From Spartobacteria bacterium (lineage in GTDB: Bacteria; Verrucomicrobiota; Verrucomicrobiia; Chthoniobacterales; UBA10450), in the NCBI GenBank assembly GCA_003167555.1, contig PMSN01000006.1, positions 1 to 64,000 on the forward strand: 64,000 bases of DNA. The letters are read 5' to 3'. Position numbers and translations under genes: made by a program. The first letter of the stretch is position 1; every line of letters begins with the position of its first letter. Under the pieces are notes generated by a model, which worked only from the letters and a program-made list of their open reading frames with translations, did not search any database and was not told the origin of the DNA. Of the stretch, positions 56,402-64,000 are shown piece by piece.

Positions 56402-56409
56402 CTACACAG
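56402..56409. repeat. 8-bp target-site duplication, left
   Basis: CTACACAG stands directly before the left terminal inverted repeat and is repeated at 59272-59279 directly after the right one. Eight bases is the usual duplication for the IS1595 family. Confidence 0.9.
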
Positions 56410-56476
56410 GGTAACAATATACTTGACAGACCGTGCGCGCGGGGCATTTTGTGGCCTCCGCCGTGACAGCAGAAGC

Positions 56477-56638
56477 TTAGGCTTCGGTCGGTTCTTCTTC
56501 GCTGGCCTTGACCGCTGGGCTTGGCGTTTTCGCAACGCGCCTTACCAGCGTTTCAAAGCGCCTTGCAGCGCCCCGGCCCTCGCTGGCGTCCTTAGCCAAG
56601 CGCTCAAGCGTTTCTTCGCGTGTTTCAGTTTTCTTCAT
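56477..56638 (-). CDS. Passenger 3 of the IS1595 element, 53-residue protein
   Basis: The ATG at 56638 is three bases after the stop of passenger 2. The product is MKKTETREETLERLAKDASE, then GRGAARRFETLVRRVAKTPSPAVKASEEEPTEA. A charged helix plus the RLL/VRRVAKTP motif is reminiscent of small proteins carried by other mobile elements. It is the last gene before the left inverted repeat. It is too short for a confident function. Confidence 0.55.
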   Translation of the reverse strand: MKKTETREETLERLAKDASEGRGAARRFETLVRRVAKTPSPAVKASEEEPTEA

Positions 56639-56641
56639 GGA

Positions 56642-57412
56642 CTAAGGGCATTTGTCATCATCGGTATCGTTATATGTTTTGTAGGTGTTGTAATACCCAC
56701 CGAAGCTCGTTCTGTGACAGAAGGTAGTCCAGTGTTCGCATCCGAAAATGTCCGAATAGATTATCCTTCCGAAAACGAACAAACGAGCAACGTCGTCTTG
56801 AAAATCTTTGATGGCGCTCTTGTCAAACTTATCAGCTTCGATTGTTTGAGTCATTTCCCAAACGCCCCCAGGTGCAATCAGTGCTCTATGAATCACCTGA
56901 TCCCGGTCCGACTTTTCATCGGCGTCAAAATCTGGATCACCGCGAGATGTTTCACGAGCGAGAACCACTGTATGAAAAATAGCGTGTTTGGCGGGAGTCT
57001 TTCCAGCGTTCTTGAAGATTACATGAATCGTGAGAGGCTCGCCCTTTTTCGGGATTACTGGATCGCTGTGTATGCTATCCAGGGTGAGCCACGCCCTTTG
57101 ATCGATCCGCGCGGAATCCCTAGCCAGCAATACAGAATCTCTAGTAGCTTTTGTAGCCGCTTTCATCTCGACGAGTTGGCCATTCATGGCCTGCCACTGC
57201 TGATAGGCAAAAAAACTGTAAATCGCGACAGCCGCGAAAACGAGAACATCAACCGTCAGGGTTATCCACCGAAACACTTGACTGGATATGTATGCCTTGC
57301 GGCGGGTCTTCTTTTCGATCTTTTGGGATTCCTGATTCTCTTTGGAATTATCAACGTCCCCCGGTTTCTCGGGGTTAGCGCGCTGCTCATCTCGGTTGTG
57401 CTGATTTGGCAA
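56642..57412 (-). CDS. Passenger 2 of the IS1595 element, single-pass membrane protein
   Basis: This 256-residue protein starts at a TTG (57412). The hydrophilic N-terminus (about 1-45, rich in Glu/Asn/Lys) is followed by one transmembrane helix (ITLTVDVLVFAAVAIYSFFAYQQW) and a C-terminal beta-rich domain with the motif ARIDQRAWLTLDSIHSDPVIPKKGEPLTIHVIFKNAGKTPAKHA, a common immunoglobulin-like periplasmic or surface-facing domain in many uncharacterised membrane proteins. It probably faces the periplasm. The role within the element is unknown. Confidence 0.65.
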   Translation of the reverse strand: MPNQHNRDEQRANPEKPGDVDNSKENQESQKIEKKTRRKAYISSQVFRWITLTVDVLVFAAVAIYSFFAYQQWQAMNGQLVEMKAATKATRDSVLLARDSARIDQRAWLTLDSIHSDPVIPKKGEPLTIHVIFKNAGKTPAKHAIFHTVVLARETSRGDPDFDADEKSDRDQVIHRALIAPGGVWEMTQTIEADKFDKSAIKDFQDDVARLFVFGRIIYSDIFGCEHWTTFCHRTSFGGYYNTYKTYNDTDDDKCP

Positions 57413-57447
57413 GGTATGAGTCTATGTTTCCTGCGTTAATCCTAAGC

Positions 57448-57470
57448 CGTTTGCCACGTTTCTGTCGGGT
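57448..57470. repeat. 23-bp direct repeat of the transposase 3' end, copy 1
   Basis: It is identical to 58292-58314, with core TTTGCCACGTTTCTGTCGGG. In the minus frame it encodes PTETWQT of the transposase and also contains the GTG used as start by passenger 1. It marks both edges of passenger 1, as if that gene was captured next to the transposase end. Confidence 0.75.
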
Positions 57471-57476
57471 GTTGTG

Positions 57477-58301
57477 TCATTTCTTTGGGTCACTCCGAAC
57501 ATATTCTAGGGTGGCGTCGCGCAGGGTAATTGCCGTCGTTCTTGCATCGTCAATAATTCCACGAACTCGGAAAACGTCCGTTTGCTCCATCAGAGGAAAT
57601 CTTTCGTTTCCTGCCAGCGGCAGATCTACAACGACAAATCCCATTGCTTGCTTCGCGTCGTGTAACCAAACCTGCATCAACTTCCCGCTAGAATCACGAT
57701 TCGCGGAATCGAAGTTCAGAGTCCAGTCAACGGGCAATCCTTTAAAGGCATTCCTAACCTCGTCGTATTTACCGCTTTCCGCAGAACCAAGGGCATCAGC
57801 AAGTTTTTGCCACGCGCCTCTGAAGTTGAGCGAAGCCACACGGTGCTCGGGCGTCATTGAAGGAAGCGGGGTAGCTAGTGTCTGCGCAGGTGACGCAATC
57901 GGGGTTGGAGTTATGATTGCGGGCGGAGATACAGTCTTTGATTCGCTCAACACCGGCAACGGAGATGTGTCTAAATTAACAGGAGGTTTGGCCTGTAGAT
58001 CACGTTCGGCAATGGTGGCGTGCCACCAAACAAAGATGGCCGCGAATGCAAGCGCTACGCCAACGTACGTTGCCCAGAGAGCATGAAACTTGTGATGAGA
58101 GACGGAAATTCCACAAAGGATTCCAGCCAGCGCAAAGGCGACACCGCTAAGTATCCAAAGCGGAGTCATCCAGCGCCGTATATCCTTTCTCCTAATGACT
58201 TGTGGCTGGGGCTCGGGATCATGTTCTATGTGGGATTTATCCTTGGGGTGCTTTGCATGGCGATACTTGCGTTTCACCGATGAGCTTAGATCGTTTGCCA
58301 C
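57477..58301 (-). CDS. Passenger 1 of the IS1595 element, two-helix membrane protein
   Basis: This 274-residue protein has a GTG start that lies inside the transposase 3' end (16-base overlap). The basic N-terminus leads to two TM helices (about 45-62 and 72-92), then a Pro/Thr linker. The C-terminal soluble domain (about 155-270; VDWTLNFDSANRDSSGKLMQVWL...GNERFPLMEQTDVFRVRGIIDDART) is OB-fold-like in pattern. A 23-base direct repeat of the transposase 3' end lies on both sides of the gene. Confidence 0.65.
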   Translation of the reverse strand: MANDLSSSVKRKYRHAKHPKDKSHIEHDPEPQPQVIRRKDIRRWMTPLWILSGVAFALAGILCGISVSHHKFHALWATYVGVALAFAAIFVWWHATIAERDLQAKPPVNLDTSPLPVLSESKTVSPPAIITPTPIASPAQTLATPLPSMTPEHRVASLNFRGAWQKLADALGSAESGKYDEVRNAFKGLPVDWTLNFDSANRDSSGKLMQVWLHDAKQAMGFVVVDLPLAGNERFPLMEQTDVFRVRGIIDDARTTAITLRDATLEYVRSDPKK

Positions 58302-59224
58302 GTTTCTGTCGGGTAGGGACCATCACCGCCCTCCGCAGCAATGAGCTTCGCGTATTTCAAGCTCTTGCCGACTACGCCGCTGAGCGCCTTAATGAATCGG
58401 CCTTGGTCATTGTCCTTGCGCTCGTTAAACCGAAACGCTTGTTCGTCGAGATACCGGAACAAATGAAAAGGCTCGACGTTTACATACGTCCCTTTCAGGG
58501 CGCGTTTCAGAAGGCTCCAAAAGTTTTCAAGTCCGTTCGTATGCACATGCCCTTTCGCGTAGCACTCCGCGTGGTCAATAACCTTGTGCGTGTAGTCATC
58601 GAGCAAGCCGGTGTAAGACTGCAGCGCATCGGTAAAGACTTCCGAGCCATTCAGTACGTACTCGCGGACGTTACCCTGCAATTCGGCCTTCCGCATGTTG
58701 CCTACTACATTCAATTTCACGCGAGACGCCTTCTCGTTCGTGGTTCGTTCAAGCAAGCCCTGAACAGCTGTCATGGAGGCATAGCCGGTGCCCTTGGCTC
58801 CGATGAACGTCTCGTCTGCCTCAACGCGCCCGCTCATTTTATCTATCGACCCTTGCTGCATCGCAAGCCGGATGCGTTGCAACATGAACCACGCGGTTTT
58901 CTGAGTTACGCCAAGCGCGCGGTGAAGCTCATACGAGCTAATGCCGTTTTTGCAGTTCGACGTGAGCCACATTGCCGGGAGCCACTTATCAAGACCAATC
59001 GGGGAATCTTCGAAGATCGTTCCCACCTTGGCGGAAAACTTTTGCTTCGGATGCGGCGTGCGGCATTTCCAAACCTTCGCGTTTTCAAGGAACGTCACCT
59101 TGTCCGAACCGCAGCGCGGGCACGTGACGCCCTTCGGCCAGCGAATGCCGACAAAGAACTGCAATGCGTTCTCTGGATTGCTGAAATATTGAACCGCTTC
59201 CAACAGGGTTTCCGGTGCTTGCAT
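58286..59224 (-). CDS. IS1595-family transposase (ISXO2-like DDE domain)
   Basis: This 312-residue protein has an N-terminal zinc ribbon, VTCPRCGSDKVTFLENAKVWKCRTPHPKQKFSAKVGT. The helical HTH region is WLTSNCKNGISSYELHRALGVTQKTAWFMLQRIRLA. The ISXO2-like DDE core begins GRVEADETFIGAKG (first Asp), continues through EVFTDALQSYTGL (second Asp) and ends in NGLENFWSLLKRALKGTYVNVEPFHLFRYLDEQAFRFNER (Asn/Glu). The length is normal. Its 3' end is duplicated at 57448-57470. Confidence 0.92.
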   Translation of the reverse strand: MQAPETLLEAVQYFSNPENALQFFVGIRWPKGVTCPRCGSDKVTFLENAKVWKCRTPHPKQKFSAKVGTIFEDSPIGLDKWLPAMWLTSNCKNGISSYELHRALGVTQKTAWFMLQRIRLAMQQGSIDKMSGRVEADETFIGAKGTGYASMTAVQGLLERTTNEKASRVKLNVVGNMRKAELQGNVREYVLNGSEVFTDALQSYTGLLDDYTHKVIDHAECYAKGHVHTNGLENFWSLLKRALKGTYVNVEPFHLFRYLDEQAFRFNERKDNDQGRFIKALSGVVGKSLKYAKLIAAEGGDGPYPTETWQTI

Positions 59225-59271
59225 ACGAGGAGAATATACCCATGAACCGGTCTGTCAAGTATATTATTACC

Positions 59272-59279
59272 CTACACAG
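59272..59279. repeat. 8-bp target-site duplication, right
   Basis: This CTACACAG copy lies between the right inverted repeat and the GGGTTAGAT core of the cassette that starts at 59282. Confidence 0.9.
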
Positions 59280-59282
59280 GGG

Positions 59283-59660
59283 TTAGATGGTTGGCGCGCA
59301 TTCGTCGAGAGATGTTCCCCAGCCATCGAACAGTGCAGCGTGCTCCGCTGCAACGCGGACAAAACGCTCAACCTGCTCTTCGCTTGTGAAGTGCGATACG
59401 CTCGACGTGAGAGCGCCCTGAATCGTCCAAGGATGGCTACCAGCGTCGTCTGCCTGAGAAATGGAAATATTGCAGATGCCGTGAGACTGTAATACGGCGG
59501 ACAAAGCGATCGCAGCATCTTCGGAGGCAGTGTGGAAGAAACAATCAATCGTTCGCTCACGCTCAAGGCTCGCACCGTGGGTGGAGATATTTTCCACGAG
59601 CTTAACATTGCGCGCATGGTGCGCGGCGATGTCTTCCGAGATAACGCGAGGCTTCACCAT
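59283..59660 (-). CDS. Integron cassette gene 1: RraB-like protein (RNase E inhibitor family)
   Basis: This 125-residue protein matches the ribonuclease E inhibitor RraB/DUF1260 family. The core is RERTIDCFFHTASEDAAIALSAVLQSHG, and the end AEHAALFDGWGTSLDE contains the typical 'a..h.G.yDGWGt' motif. It starts at ATG inside GTTAGATGGTG, directly at a cassette junction, and its stop TAA lies within the next core site ATCTAAC. Such anchoring is characteristic of integron cassettes. It may modulate RNA decay, but no native partner can be assigned. Confidence 0.8.
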   Translation of the reverse strand: MVKPRVISEDIAAHHARNVKLVENISTHGASLERERTIDCFFHTASEDAAIALSAVLQSHGICNISISQADDAGSHPWTIQGALTSSVSHFTSEEQVERFVRVAAEHAALFDGWGTSLDECAPTI

Positions 59661-59685
59661 CTAACGCTCGATGGAGGGGTTAGAT
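59659..59685 (-). other. Minimal attC-like junction (27 bp)
   Basis: On the minus strand the site reads ATCTAAC-(13 bases)-GTTAGAT, with both core sites intact (RYYYAAC and GTTRRRY), but the folded central arms of a normal attC are missing. The 13-base centre (CCCTCCATCGAGC) matches part of the arm sequence of the two long attC sites. It is probably an internally deleted attC. Confidence 0.65.
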
Positions 59686-60276
59686 GTCGCTTTCACGTAG
59701 GGTGATGCGGTAGCGCAGAGCCGGTGTACTTCCGTACGCCGCTGGCCGAATGAACTGTTCGACGAGGACTCCGCCGTTGCGCTCGACCACGCGGCGCGAT
59801 GCGATGTTGTCCGGGTCTGTGGTGATCTCGACATATTCGAGCTCTTCGGCTCGAACCCCCTGGAGCAGCTGACGTAACGCCTCGGTAGCGTAGCCGAGAC
59901 CCTGCTTCCAAGGTACGACTGCATAACCGATGTGACCAAGCACATGGGGCGGCAGCGCACTGGTTCCCACTTGCCACCGAAAGCCGATGGAGCCGCAAAG
60001 CTCGCCGTCCCATAGCCAGCGGCGATAGCTCGGGAGGCGGGGCACTTGCGAACCGTCCGGGAGCGTGAGGACTTCGCCATTCGGCGTGCGAGCGACGAGC
60101 CCCGAAAGGAACCCTTCGGGATTGGCGGCGATAGCCTCCAGCTGTTCTCGAGCCGCCTCCGCTCCGCGCATGTGGTCTGGCGACCAACCTCGCTCCAACG
60201 CCGAGACGTAGCTGGACAGGTATTCCATCGAAGGCCACACAAGCCTGACGCCACTGGGTTCGAGGATTGGCGGCAT
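59680..60276 (-). CDS. Integron cassette gene 2: GNAT family N-acetyltransferase
   Basis: This 198-residue acetyltransferase starts at ATG 60276, which is part of the core site GTTAGATG. The acetyl-CoA loop is in PWKQGLGYATEALRQLL (QGLGYA). The YAVVPWKQGLGYATEAL and ITTDPDNIASRRVVERNGGV blocks match the RimJ/RimL-like GNAT group ('n..S.rv.ek.G'). The substrate may be an aminoglycoside, an antibiotic, a peptide or protein N-terminus. The gene ends at the 27-bp junction. Confidence 0.85.
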   Translation of the reverse strand: MPPILEPSGVRLVWPSMEYLSSYVSALERGWSPDHMRGAEAAREQLEAIAANPEGFLSGLVARTPNGEVLTLPDGSQVPRLPSYRRWLWDGELCGSIGFRWQVGTSALPPHVLGHIGYAVVPWKQGLGYATEALRQLLQGVRAEELEYVEITTDPDNIASRRVVERNGGVLVEQFIRPAAYGSTPALRYRITLRESDI

Positions 60277-60397
60277 CTAACGAGAATAAGATGAGCGACC
60301 GCTGGCGAGAGCGAGCTTTTTCGCAGGTTTAGATGTCGAAGTCATCTCAAAATGGATATCACAACGGCGAGCGGTTCGCTCCATCGCATGGTTAGGC
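60275..60397 (-). other. attC recombination site, 123 bp
   Basis: On the minus strand it begins GCCTAAC (R'', plus GTTAGGC at 60391-60397) and ends GTTAGAT (plus ATCTAAC at 60275-60281). Inside, the arms pair imperfectly: GATGAGCGACCGCTGGCGAG near one end and GGCGAGCGGTTCGCTCCATC near the other. The length is in the range of Vibrio VCR attC sites. The following cassette gene starts within the core. Confidence 0.85.
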
Positions 60398-60437
60398 TTT
60401 TGTGTTTTCACTGTGCGCGAGAAGCGAGATCGGAGCT

Positions 60438-60869
60438 TTACGACATCCAATCTTTTATGTTGTCGAGCTTTAGGGTTGCTTTGCGGCGACCTATCAGGCC
60501 GTTAATCCGCTGCACCACGGTAGCCGGTGGTAGACGGAGGCGGCGAGCATCATCGATAAACCAATCAACGAGACAAGATTTTGGGAGCAGCGTCAGTCTC
60601 TGTTCGAGCGAGGCGAGGTCGAGTCCAGCTGTGCGACGCGCGTCGAACGTCTCGAGAAAGGCATTTCGGCCACCACCAAGTTCGCGATCCCGTACGAGTG
60701 CGAAGCGAAAAGACCCGTCAACAATCGCCCAGGAGAATAGTACATACATCGGCCTTAGATCGTGCGTTACGGGAAGATCGGCCCACGAACGATCGTCCGT
60801 CGACGCAGCGCAGCCGGCGGTAAGCACGACTAAGACGGTCAACATCGCGATGGTGGACGTGCGAATCAT
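60438..60869 (-). CDS. Integron cassette gene 3: hypothetical lipoprotein
   Basis: This 143-residue protein has a lipoprotein signal ending in the lipobox LTAGC (Cys20). The mature part is DRSWADLPVTHDLRPMYVLFSWAIVDGSFRFALVRDRE and a helical C-terminus. No family is recognised. The start ATG at 60869 lies three bases after the GTTAGGC core (GTTAGGCTCATG), the position expected for a cassette gene. It is membrane-attached and has no obvious function. Confidence 0.7.
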   Translation of the reverse strand: MIRTSTIAMLTVLVVLTAGCAASTDDRSWADLPVTHDLRPMYVLFSWAIVDGSFRFALVRDRELGGGRNAFLETFDARRTAGLDLASLEQRLTLLPKSCLVDWFIDDARRLRLPPATVVQRINGLIGRRKATLKLDNIKDWMS

Positions 60870-60871
60870 GA

Positions 60872-60995
60872 GCCTAACGAGAACAAGATGAGCGACGACG
60901 GGCGAGAGAGCGCGTGGCGCGCAAGAAAAGGGAAGTAGCTACCATGAGCTTAAATCGGAAGGCTGCCCGTCGTTCGCTCCATCGCATGGTTAGAT
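60872..60995 (-). other. attC recombination site, 124 bp
   Basis: On the minus strand it begins ATCTAAC (plus GTTAGAT, 60989-60995) and ends GTTAGGC (plus GCCTAAC, 60872-60878). The arms GATGAGCGACGACGGGCGAG and GCCCGTCGTTCGCTCCATCG pair. It shares its outer 30 bases on each side with the 123-bp site, as is typical for a homogeneous chromosomal integron. Confidence 0.85.
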
Positions 60996-60999
60996 CGTT

Positions 61000-61464
61000 T
61001 CATCGCAGCGTCTTCGTGGCGTCTCGAATGAGCTTCTGCTGAATCTGGTCGAGCGCAATCGGGAGGTGCTGAAGCGTGTCGCGCGGCTTGTGCAGCGTGA
61101 TGGTAGCTTCGATGACACGCAGCGTGTCTAACGCGAGCATGATCGCGAACTCGTGATCTCTGCCTCGGGGCTGGATATGGAATACGATGTACGGTGGAAG
61201 AAGATCCCGGTCGTGATACCACGAACTGGATATCTCGAGCTTGTGCGGCTCCTCGAAAAAGGTGCCGAGTATCCCTACAAAGGTGATCCCGTGACGGCCA
61301 ATGCGGAGTCGAAGCGCCTTCGCGTCGAATTCTGCAGGCGCGTACTTGCTCGGCAGCCCGACGATGTGAGTGCCTTCGAGCTCGATCCGCGTATCCACAT
61401 GCGCTGACGCAGCCGTGTGGGACAAGATGAGTAGGGCGAAGCAGCTGAGAAGGCGTGCGCTCAC
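61000..61464 (-). CDS. Integron cassette gene 4: hypothetical secreted protein
   Basis: This 154-residue protein has a signal peptide (LLSCFALLILSHTAASAHV). The mature part is beta-rich: RIELEGTHIVGLPSKYAPAEFDAKALRLRIGRHGITFVGILGTFFEEP. Its GTG start comes just after the core site GTTAGAT (61466-61472). It is followed by the 124-bp attC. No function is known. Confidence 0.7.
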   Translation of the reverse strand: MSARLLSCFALLILSHTAASAHVDTRIELEGTHIVGLPSKYAPAEFDAKALRLRIGRHGITFVGILGTFFEEPHKLEISSSWYHDRDLLPPYIVFHIQPRGRDHEFAIMLALDTLRVIEATITLHKPRDTLQHLPIALDQIQQKLIRDATKTLR

Positions 61465-61465
61465 G

Positions 61466-61475
61466 ATCTAACGAG
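61466..61475 (-). other. Half attC (upstream end of the cassette array)
   Basis: The core GTTAGAT is preceded by TCTAATTCTC, as in the right parts of the other attC sites. No matching left core (plus GTTRRRY) is found within 300 bases upstream, and no integrase or attI is recognised. The array therefore ends here as a cluster of attC lacking integrase. Confidence 0.6.
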
Positions 61476-61562
61476 AATTAGACGAAAGTTCGTAATTAAA
61501 GGCGAACATTTTTTCGCCTATTTCGGGCATTCCCGCGAGCTCGCCGGGCCGTACATAAAATG

Positions 61563-61591
61563 AACGGCGGCTCCCCCAGAGAGCCGCCGTT
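61563..61591. terminator. Hairpin downstream of the FN3 fragment
   Basis: AACGGCGGCTC and GAGCCGCCGTT form a perfect 11-bp stem with a 7-base loop (CCCCAGA). A T-run is lacking. It probably ended the truncated fibronectin-III gene that lies upstream on the minus strand. Confidence 0.5.
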
Positions 61592-61634
61592 GCCCCGCGT
61601 TGCCGTCGGCGGCATGACAACCGCCGGGGCAAAT

Positions 61635-61815
61635 TCACGTCACCATGATCGAGGCGGGGTCGCTCCAGCCGCCCGTCTCTCCTTTGGTGCCGATCTTGCG
61701 TACGCGCACCCAGAGCGTCGCGCCGGGCGTCAACCCGCTCAGGTCGGCGCGGCCGCCGGTGAAGGAACCTTTGTAGCTCCAGTTCGCAAACGGCGGAGAA
61801 CTACGTGAGGCAATC
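61635..61815 (-). pseudogene. C-terminal fragment of a fibronectin type III protein
   Basis: The minus-strand frame reads NWSYKGSFTGGRADLSGLTPGATLWVRVRKIGTKGETGGWSDPASIMVT and stops at 61635. It is the last strands of an FN3 domain, but the upstream part of the gene is missing. A GTTAGGC core site at 61817-61823 stands exactly where the homology breaks, so integron recombination may have truncated the gene. Confidence 0.65.
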
Positions 61816-61865
61816 AGTTAGGCTAGTGCGCTGAATCTGAATAGATAGCGGGCGACCGCATTTTC

Positions 61866-62010
61866 TGGGGAGAGCGCGCGCCTCGCGTGCTGGTTGCGGC
61901 GCCCTCGCCGCAACGAACTTCGTCAGTTGGTAGGAGTGTCCGGCTCGGGAAGCGAAAAAGTCCGCGATGACGAGGGCGTCATCGCCAGCACGCGTGGCGC
62001 GCGCTCCCCA
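61866..62010. repeat. Long nested palindrome (145 bp)
   Basis: The outer arms 61866-61892 and 61985-62010 are near-complementary (TGGGGAGAGCGCGCGCC with GGCGCGCGCTCCCCA). Inside are two more hairpins, TTGCGGCG/CGCCGCAA and CGATGACG/CGTCATCG. The element fills the gap beside the small zinc-ribbon gene. Confidence 0.65.
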
Positions 62011-62025
62011 GACCTTCCGCATCGA

Positions 62026-62211
62026 CTAGAGATCTTGCCGCTGGGAGCATTTCCAGCAGGTCAACCATTTCCAATTGGAATCGGCGTAGTTCATCGCGCC
62101 GCACACGCCGCATACATACATCAGCCGCCTGGCGCGGCCGGCGACTTCAGGCACGTCGTTTTCCAGGCCGGCGCCGCCTGCTGGTGTCTTACCCTCGTTC
62201 TGCTCGCCCAT
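62026..62211 (-). CDS. Small zinc-ribbon protein
   Basis: This 61-residue protein has MYVCGVCGAMNYADSNWKWLTCWKCSQRQ near its end, giving two CxxC knuckles 18 residues apart. The N-terminal half is acidic and disordered. It is a close relative of the next gene upstream (62227-62433), with which it is in tandem, 15 bases apart. Its function is unknown. Confidence 0.65.
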   Translation of the reverse strand: MGEQNEGKTPAGGAGLENDVPEVAGRARRLMYVCGVCGAMNYADSNWKWLTCWKCSQRQDL

Positions 62212-62226
62212 GGTCGTTGGTGGGCG

Positions 62227-62433
62227 TCAGATAATCCCGCTCATCGCGCCGCACTTCCAACAGGTGAATGAGTTTTGATCTTCGGGAACGGAGCATTCGG
62301 CGCCGCAATTGTAGCAGGTGTAAATGATGGTCCGTTTTCGCCCCGCCACTTCCGTTTGCTGCTCGGCGGGGGGCACGCTCAGTCTCGGTTTGCCTTCGCC
62401 TTCCCATTTGGTCGTCGTTTTCTCGGTTGCCAT
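62227..62433 (-). CDS. Small zinc-ribbon protein, paralog
   Basis: This 68-residue protein starts at ATG 62433 (MATEKTTTKWEGEGKPRLSV); a longer frame to 62484 exists. The C-terminal half is TIIYTCYNCGAECSVPEDQNSFTCWKCGAMSGII, with two CxxC pairs. The 'TCWKC' knuckle is shared with the neighbour, so the two arose by tandem duplication. Both are divergent from hppD. Confidence 0.65.
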   Translation of the reverse strand: MATEKTTTKWEGEGKPRLSVPPAEQQTEVAGRKRTIIYTCYNCGAECSVPEDQNSFTCWKCGAMSGII

Positions 62434-62484
62434 ATTCGAATTCTCTTCTGTTTTTTCAGTGAGCCAGCGTGTTTCGGAAAACAC

Positions 62485-62717
62485 TGGACGTTGGTTTATT
62501 GCAAGTTCGACGAGTAAGATGCCACATCTTGCGTTCGGGAGACGAGCAGGATTTTTGCAAATTCGTTCTCTGATGATTCCGCGCGATGCTTGCAGTGGGC
62601 CGCGGTCGATTTATATTCGACCCACGGCGCGGCGCCGTTTCGACGATTGAACGGGAGATCGTTTGAAAGCCGGTCGCGGTGGGTTAACGTTGCTGCGTTC
62701 GAGAAAGCCAAATTCCT
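62485..62717. other. Divergent promoter region of hppD and the zinc-ribbon pair
   Basis: This is about 230 bases without a gene. I see no clear operator palindrome. The presumed promoters for both directions must lie here. Confidence 0.35.
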
Positions 62718-63851
62718 ATGGAAACAACCATCGCCGCTCCCAAACCCAGCTCGTCCGCTGAAACCGATTTCCTGCCGCTTCAGGGAACGGATTACGTGGA
62801 GTTTTACGTCGGCAATGCGAAACAGGCCGCGCATTTCTACAAGACCGCGTTCGGTTTCCAAAGTCTCGCGTATTCCGGGCCGGAGACCGGCATGAAAGAG
62901 AAAGCGAGTTACGTCATTCGCCAGAACAAATTGACCTTCGTTCTCACGACGCCGCTGCGGTCAAACAATCCGATTACGGAGCACATCCATAAACATGGCG
63001 ATGGCGTGAAGGTGCTGGCCTTGAAGGTGGAAGACGCCACCTCGGCTTGGGAAGAGACCACCAAGCGCGGCGGCAAGAGTTATCTCGAGCCGACGACTCT
63101 TACGGATGACGACGGCGAGGTAGTCATGAGCGGCATCCATACTTATGGCGATACCGTTCACCTATTTATCGAGCGCGGTAACTATCGCGGCGACTTTATG
63201 CCGGGCTTCCGCAAATGGGAATCTTTCTACAACCCGCCTGAGACCGGCCTTCTCTACGTGGACCATTGCGTGGGAAATGTCGGCTGGAACCAGATGAATC
63301 CCTGGGTGAAATTTTACGAGGAGGTAATGGGGTTCCGCAATATTCTTACCTTCGACGACAAGGACATCTCGACGGAATACTCGGCCTTGATGAGCAAGGT
63401 CATGAGCAACGGAAATGGTTTCGTGAAGTTTCCCATCAACGAGCCGGCCGAAGGCAAGAAGAAGTCGCAGGTGGAAGAGTATCTGGAGTTCTACAACGGC
63501 GAAGGCGTCCAGCACGTGGCGGTGGCAACGAACGATATCGTCAAGACGGTGACCGACCTGCAAAAGCGCGGCGTGGAATTCCTGAACATACCAGCGAGCT
63601 ATTACGCCACGGTGCTCGATCGAGTAGGCCATATCGACGAAGACCTCGAACCATTGCAGCGGTTGGGCATCCTGGTCGACCGGGATGAAGAGGGCTATTT
63701 GCTCCAAATCTTTTCCAAACCGGTGGAAGACCGGCCGACTCTCTTTTTCGAAATCATTCAGCGCAAGGGCGCGAAGAGTTTCGGCAAAGGTAATTTCAAA
63801 GCGCTTTTTGAAGCATTGGAGAAGGAGCAGGACGCTCGAGGCAATTTGTAA
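62718..63851 (+). CDS. hppD: 4-hydroxyphenylpyruvate dioxygenase
   Basis: This 377-residue Fe(II) enzyme converts 4-hydroxyphenylpyruvate to homogentisate in tyrosine degradation. It has two glyoxalase/vicinal-oxygen-chelate domains. Iron ligands are His in LYVDHCVGN, His in GVQHVAVATND and Glu in TLFFEIIQRKGAKSFGKGNF. ATG 62718 follows a short leader. It is followed 12 bases later by hmgA, the next pathway enzyme. Confidence 0.95.
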   Translation: METTIAAPKPSSSAETDFLPLQGTDYVEFYVGNAKQAAHFYKTAFGFQSLAYSGPETGMKEKASYVIRQNKLTFVLTTPLRSNNPITEHIHKHGDGVKVLALKVEDATSAWEETTKRGGKSYLEPTTLTDDDGEVVMSGIHTYGDTVHLFIERGNYRGDFMPGFRKWESFYNPPETGLLYVDHCVGNVGWNQMNPWVKFYEEVMGFRNILTFDDKDISTEYSALMSKVMSNGNGFVKFPINEPAEGKKKSQVEEYLEFYNGEGVQHVAVATNDIVKTVTDLQKRGVEFLNIPASYYATVLDRVGHIDEDLEPLQRLGILVDRDEEGYLLQIFSKPVEDRPTLFFEIIQRKGAKSFGKGNFKALFEALEKEQDARGNL

Positions 63852-63863
63852 GGGAGAATAGAC

Positions 63864-64000
63864 ATGCCGTATTATCAGAAGCTCGGTGAGATTCCGAAAA
63901 AGCATCATATCTGGTTTCATCGCAATGGGAGCGGGCCCTCCTACAAGAATGAGGGAATCGCTTACGAGCACGTCATTACGACGGAAGGCTTCAACGAAGC
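63864..64000 (+). CDS. hmgA: Homogentisate 1,2-dioxygenase, N-terminal part (cut by window end)
   Basis: The first 45 residues are visible: MPYYQKLGEIPKKHHIWFHR followed by NGSGPSYKNEGIAYEHVITTEGFNEA. This is the N-terminus of the bacterial HmgA family ('G..P.KrH...r'). It opens the homogentisate ring to maleylacetoacetate, following hppD. A GGGAG ribosome site lies before the ATG. Confidence 0.88.
   Translation, partial: MPYYQKLGEIPKKHHIWFHRNGSGPSYKNEGIAYEHVITTEGFNE

Follow-up and report, generated by a model that had tools for sequence, protein, structure and literature searches.

The stretch of DNA analysed here, which we call the window, is the first 64 kb (G000:C20:1-64000) of the 176-kb contig C20 in the soil Spartobacteria genome under study. 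This genome, G000, is a draft assembly of 4.2 Mb, in 29 contigs, with 98% completeness. Towards the right end of the window are four small genes, on the minus strand, organised as an integron cassette array. Each belongs to a cassette, two of the cassettes have complete attC sites, and the array is headed by a short attI-like sequence. An insertion sequence lies at the distal end. All features are listed in Table 1. Note that both flanks of the array are long. Hence, an intI gene hidden past the contig end need not be considered at this locus.

Table 1. Features of the cassette array and its distal boundary, in window coordinates
Feature	Position	Strand	Evidence or remark
attI-like site (type B), 55-57 bp	61464..61520	minus	ends at core GTTAGAT of cassette 1
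Cassette 1 gene, predicted secreted protein, 154 aa	61000..61464	minus	GTG start adjoining core site
Cassette 1 attC, 124 bp	60872..60995	minus	R2 96.5 bits, E 2.2e-28; R1 116.2 bits
Cassette 2 gene, predicted lipoprotein, 143 aa	60438..60869	minus	lipobox LTAGC by eye
Cassette 2 attC, 123 bp	60275..60397	minus	R2 105.8 bits, E 2.2e-31; R1 119.5 bits
Cassette 3 gene, GNAT acetyltransferase	59680..60276	minus	ATG overlaps GTTAGATG; stop TAA within R''
Cassette 3 attC remnant, 27 bp (R'' and R', without stem)	59659..59685	minus	14.5 bits, E 0.002, local unfiltered search
Cassette 4 gene, RraB-like protein	59283..59660	minus	stop TAA within R''
R'' core ATCTAAC 3' of cassette 4; remainder of attC lost	59282..59288	minus	sequence
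IS1595-family element, transposase 58286-59224 and two passenger ORFs	56410..59271	minus	NF033547 168 bits

A sequence-only reading of the window had already placed four cassette genes here. The open reading frames are real, occur where it put them, and have starts or stops within core sites. Thus, the GNAT gene begins in GTTAG-ATG, the cassette 1 gene begins in GTTAGATCGTG, and both the GNAT and RraB genes end in ATC-TAA-C. Pfam searches bear out the proposed identities of the latter two products (PF13302, E 1e-12, for GNAT; PF06877, E 3.5e-11, for RraB). For the other two, labelled a secreted protein and a lipoprotein, the frames stand, but neither product matched anything in Pfam and the lipobox was recognised by eye. 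No counterpart of the cassette 1 gene was found among 60 other genomes of the family. Relatives of the GNAT gene, with 62-64% identity, adjoin attC sites in G446, G454, and G007. A further GNAT-like copy (G004:C276:3516-4097) has 81% DNA identity to the cassette gene and no attC within 1.5 kb. The similarity of this chromosomal copy extends from the start codon to a few codons short of the stop, as though these were the points where gene and cassette were joined. We dropped the idea that the GNAT cassette derives from a chromosomal gene, because movement from gene to cassette and from cassette to gene cannot be told apart.

The 121-bp core of one site, used as a query, gave 19 matches in the genome, on many contigs. 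Eleven full sites were aligned, over 125 columns, and used to build covariance model R1. Since this alignment includes the window sites, we based a second model (R2) on 14 sites that all come from another species (G002), with the window left out to avoid circularity. Across the whole window, R2 found two attC sites, at 105.8 and 96.5 bits, and nothing else above 10 bits. These are the two places where the earlier reading had staked its claim on attC models scoring. Its coordinates and lengths were exact, and its description of the sites as homogeneous, at about 123 bp, is supported. By comparison with these, the other two sites have decayed. The attC of cassette 3, at the GNAT-RraB junction, has shrunk to a 27-bp remnant, ATCTAACCCCTCCATCGAGCGTTAGAT, found only when filters were removed, and the attC of cassette 4 has been lost.

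The R''/R' and L''/L' inverted repeats of the complete sites fall in one stem. In the 11-site alignment, 95.7% of cells pair when this stem is imposed. With column 16 rather than column 17 left unpaired, the value rose to 97.2%, and 10 pairs showed compensatory change. No shuffled alignment paired as well (0 of 500), and slid structures reached 19-47%. The extrahelical bases are on the L'' arm, with columns 16 and 22 unpaired, and pair 17-106 covaries between GC and CG. Folding of single sites gave weak z-scores (-0.3 to -2.1). Instead, covariation over sites is decisive for the attC assignment. Rfam, at gathering thresholds, found only a tRNA in the window, so it offers no ready attC family.

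The sequence-only reading had also suggested looking for the same attC class elsewhere. R1 has 28 matches at E<=1 in its own genome. Of 58 relatives, 48 have R1 matches, and no sampled genome of the family lacks one. In a sample of the phylum (387 genomes), 31 match R1 at E<=1e-6, with the strong matches in or near the family. The class is family-wide. Large arrays also occur; in the same genus, G002:C54:139-46418 is a large sedentary array of about 46 kb, with dozens of attC sites that all lie on one strand.

The window array begins with a conserved 55-bp sequence, missed in the earlier reading, that we regard as attI-like. Two profiles point to this. The first, built from seven intI-adjacent attI regions of this and related genomes, with the window left out, matched the minus strand at 61526-61467, with 22.5 bits and E 1.4e-4; the match stops at the core of the first cassette. 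The second, built from 20 sites, all from other species, matched 61464-61520 (67.6 bits, E 3.1e-20). Noise for this profile is about 9 bits or less, save for the reverse of the same palindrome. Judged by sequence, an attI thus appears to head the array. A stem-deleted attC at the proximal end, 61466-61501, had been another candidate; the attI profile ruled it out.

Near-identical copies of the attI-like site occur within the genome, at C12:397370, C12:35593, and C3:320299, in addition to that on C20 in the window, which is 95% identical to a C12 site. When 58 relatives were searched with the window site, about 50 places matched at E<=1e-6, in 22 of the genomes. Conservation is confined to the site; identity is 86% (24 sites) versus 58% for the 55 bp on either side. 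At 12 of 17 measured loci in other species the site heads an attC array, in the same orientation, with 306-901 bp before the first attC. One of the other five loci reaches a contig end after 1 kb. In only four places (G005:C24, G008:C197, G009:C103, and G016:C55) is the site within about 100 bp, on the 3' side, of an IntI match running in the same direction. In G005, it starts at the IntI stop codon. At G008:C337 the site is preceded by a decayed IntI C-terminus, which we read as an intermediate of intI loss. Many copies are present in G004, G006, and G007, none of which has an IntI above the cut-off. Counts of such orphan sites may include platforms with intI past a contig end. In open-licence literature we found nothing relevant on multiple or orphan attI sites; absence there proves little.

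Might the 55-bp sequence be something other than attI? It is palindromic, with visible inverted repeats, and so could be a leader or terminator element. Alternatively, it could form the end of a mobile 'attI-type cassette' and move together with arrays, and attI-type cassettes do exist in mobile integrons (PMC12901181). At G004:C40, two attI-like sites (717-769 and 1173-1226 of the extracted locus) follow one another in tandem, separated by enough DNA for a gene. This is as expected if a cassette had attI as its 3' site. Even so, its end coincides exactly with the first cassette core, several genomes have the sequence after intI, and it is recognised by a profile of attI sites adjoining divergent intI genes. 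We consider both versions of this explanation unlikely.

The locus had been described as an array without an integrase. This holds locally; no intI adjoins the attI-like site, contig C20 has no TIGR02249 match above the cut-off, and a search of positions 60000-64000 for an IntI remnant, beside the attI-like site, found none. The description does not extend to the genome, which has two intact IntI proteins with attI sites and arrays of their own. Their open frames, on C18 and C14, encode 359 and 368 amino acids (TIGR02249 scores of 471 and 465 bits, cut-off 265). The C18 protein matches V. cholerae IntI along its length (PDB 2a3v; E 8.5e-95). In both integrons the gene order is the usual divergent one, with an attI and a first cassette whose terminal attC belongs to the family class, and both are near a contig end. 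A broken IntI is present on C4. The nearest named IntI, at 77%, is from Candidatus Udaeobacter. This places the genome in Chthoniobacterales and agrees with its earlier description as Verrucomicrobiota-like.

Logically, an IntI encoded elsewhere could have placed cassettes at a chromosomal site (attG), off target and with no attI involved. In favour of this, two IntIs are encoded in the genome and cassettes occur in many places. Furthermore, insertion at genomic attG sites is established, according to the citations of Loot et al. 2024 in PMC12901181 and PMC12444791. Such an event would not, however, bring a 55-bp site that is common to intI-adjacent sites and to other array heads with unrelated flanks, and this is what heads the window array. 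We therefore think off-target insertion very unlikely here, and favour an orphaned platform over random cassette insertion because an attI-like site heads the array.

The element at the distal end of the window array has an IS1595-type transposase, terminal inverted repeats, and an 8-bp target duplication, CTACACAG, at 56402-56409 and 59272-59279, as befits the IS1595 family. A relative, in G007:C21 (around 380-560 of the extracted locus), interrupts an attC within its L'' arm. An IS30-family element (NF033563, 85 bits) occurs at contig ends of the genome. Many arrays end contigs, partly at this element. One end of it, end A, is seen at C3, C4, C12, C14, C18, C20, and C23, always after RCCTA. 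The other, end B, is seen at C1, C8, C11, C22, and C25, and at five sites it is 2 nt ahead of an attC RYYYAAC motif; the end-B copy on C21 does not adjoin an attC. These junctions suggest that the R'' core of attC is the insertion target of the element. IS1111-attC is an attC-targeting group of insertion sequences.

Just upstream of the attI-like site, positions 61638-61803 (minus strand) encode a truncated, immunoglobulin-like, C-terminal fragment, with a weak Pfam match (E 0.016). This truncated gene, and a hairpin, approach the site to about 100 bp. Part of the window platform may thus have been replaced. Further out, on the side with the HPPD-like gene, alignment with each of the seven genus relatives starts no further left than 62661, and the transglutaminase-like gene of the left flank is at another location in these relatives. 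Hence, the region has been rearranged and an empty site cannot be read. In the neighbouring species G001, the corresponding position next to the HPPD-like gene holds an array with a different attI-like head. The platform may therefore be an old one.

We conclude that the locus is probably an orphaned integron platform, with an attI, four cassettes, two intact attC sites, and no intI nearby, that would once have had an intI and may still be served in trans. The array would once have been part of an integron with intI transcribed toward attI, as in Treponema, and intI would then have been lost. Loss at this locus is deduced from relatives, since no IntI remnant is beside the window attI. Cassette arrays lacking an integrase (CALINs) can arise by off-target insertion, loss of intI, or rearrangement, according to a review that also notes earlier reports of integrons in Verrucomicrobiota (PMC8618304). 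Of these origins, loss of intI is favoured here because an attI is present. The IntIs of C18 and C14 could still act in trans on both intact attC sites, and perhaps also on the attI, as the shared site classes suggest. The reaction would be the usual one between single-stranded attC and attI. Erosion of their attC sites would fix the GNAT and RraB genes in place.

The same anatomy would be expected of an old, inactive array fragment, with a fossil attI and no service in trans. With two of four attC sites eroded, the array may indeed be dead. The IS1595-family element at the distal end, and the many orphan sites of several relatives that have no IntI above the cut-off, are also consistent with this. 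Against it, the attI is 95% identical to another genomic copy, and two attC sites retain full pairing, beyond what is expected of neutral decay. We regard a plain, degraded fragment as a serious contender, though somewhat short of an even chance. Note that it differs from the orphaned platform in present activity alone. Hence, our confidence in the one overlaps with our confidence in the other.

The usual picture of an integron has a single integrase, a single attI, and a single array. Here, integrases are fewer than attI copies. We tentatively propose that these Verrucomicrobiota have a distributed integron, with many conserved attI platforms that are scattered over the chromosome, lack an integrase, and would be served in trans by one or two IntIs, using attC sites with an unusual extrahelical C. 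Such an arrangement would split the entry point for cassettes from the enzyme, and spread capture over the chromosome. We think this wider proposal somewhat less likely than not, and hold it with less confidence than the orphaned platform itself.

How does the locus compare with known systems? The sequence-only reading had called it a CALIN-type remnant. In the IntegronFinder definition a CALIN has two or more attC sites and no intI nearby, and the window array has both properties. That definition involves no attI, whereas the array keeps an attI-like head that is conserved at many loci of the family. Hence, the CALIN label is accurate as far as it goes, but an orphaned platform, rather than loose cassettes, is the better description. 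In Treponema-type integrons, intI is transcribed toward attI (PMC3607928). Relatives such as G005 likewise have intI transcribed toward the attI found here, in the same sense as the cassettes. The window differs in having no intI, and the C18 and C14 integrons of its genome differ in being of the ordinary divergent type. The two integrases are full IntI proteins, like that of V. cholerae (2a3v), encoded away from the window's contig.

The attC sites had been likened to the VCRs of Vibrio cholerae. Similarity is apparent in length (about 123-126 bp), in the long imperfect stem, and in the extrahelical bases of the L'' arm. We also read the published sequences of VCR and aadA7 as having the first extrahelical base equally far from R''. 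The resemblance is one of length and stem layout, the features compared; the identity of the extrahelical base and the L'-R' spacer depart from the canonical form. The first extrahelical base, at position 16 counted from R'', is a top-strand G in 13/13 sites of this genome, 64/72 sites of the genus, and 37/41 sites from other genera of the family, counts that are approximate because the attC finder has a fixed layout and a score cut-off. On the bottom, recombining, strand this base is therefore C, where canonical attC sites have G. Sites near IntI genes of other phyla, located by the same finder and so equally approximate, have a top-strand C (bottom-strand G) in 23 of 27 cases. Spacers, subject to the same caveat, are 8-9 nt in the family and mostly 5-6 nt in other phyla. 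According to Bouvier et al., hundreds of attC sites have 'almost exclusively a G' as the first extrahelical base, and changing it to C cuts recombination just 2.7-fold (PMC2727003). Since the cost of the change is so small, the family attC, a natural class that departs from the G rule, should still recombine. Hence, where VCRs have a nearly invariant G, the family supplies a natural attC class with C, at the position that decides which strand recombines.
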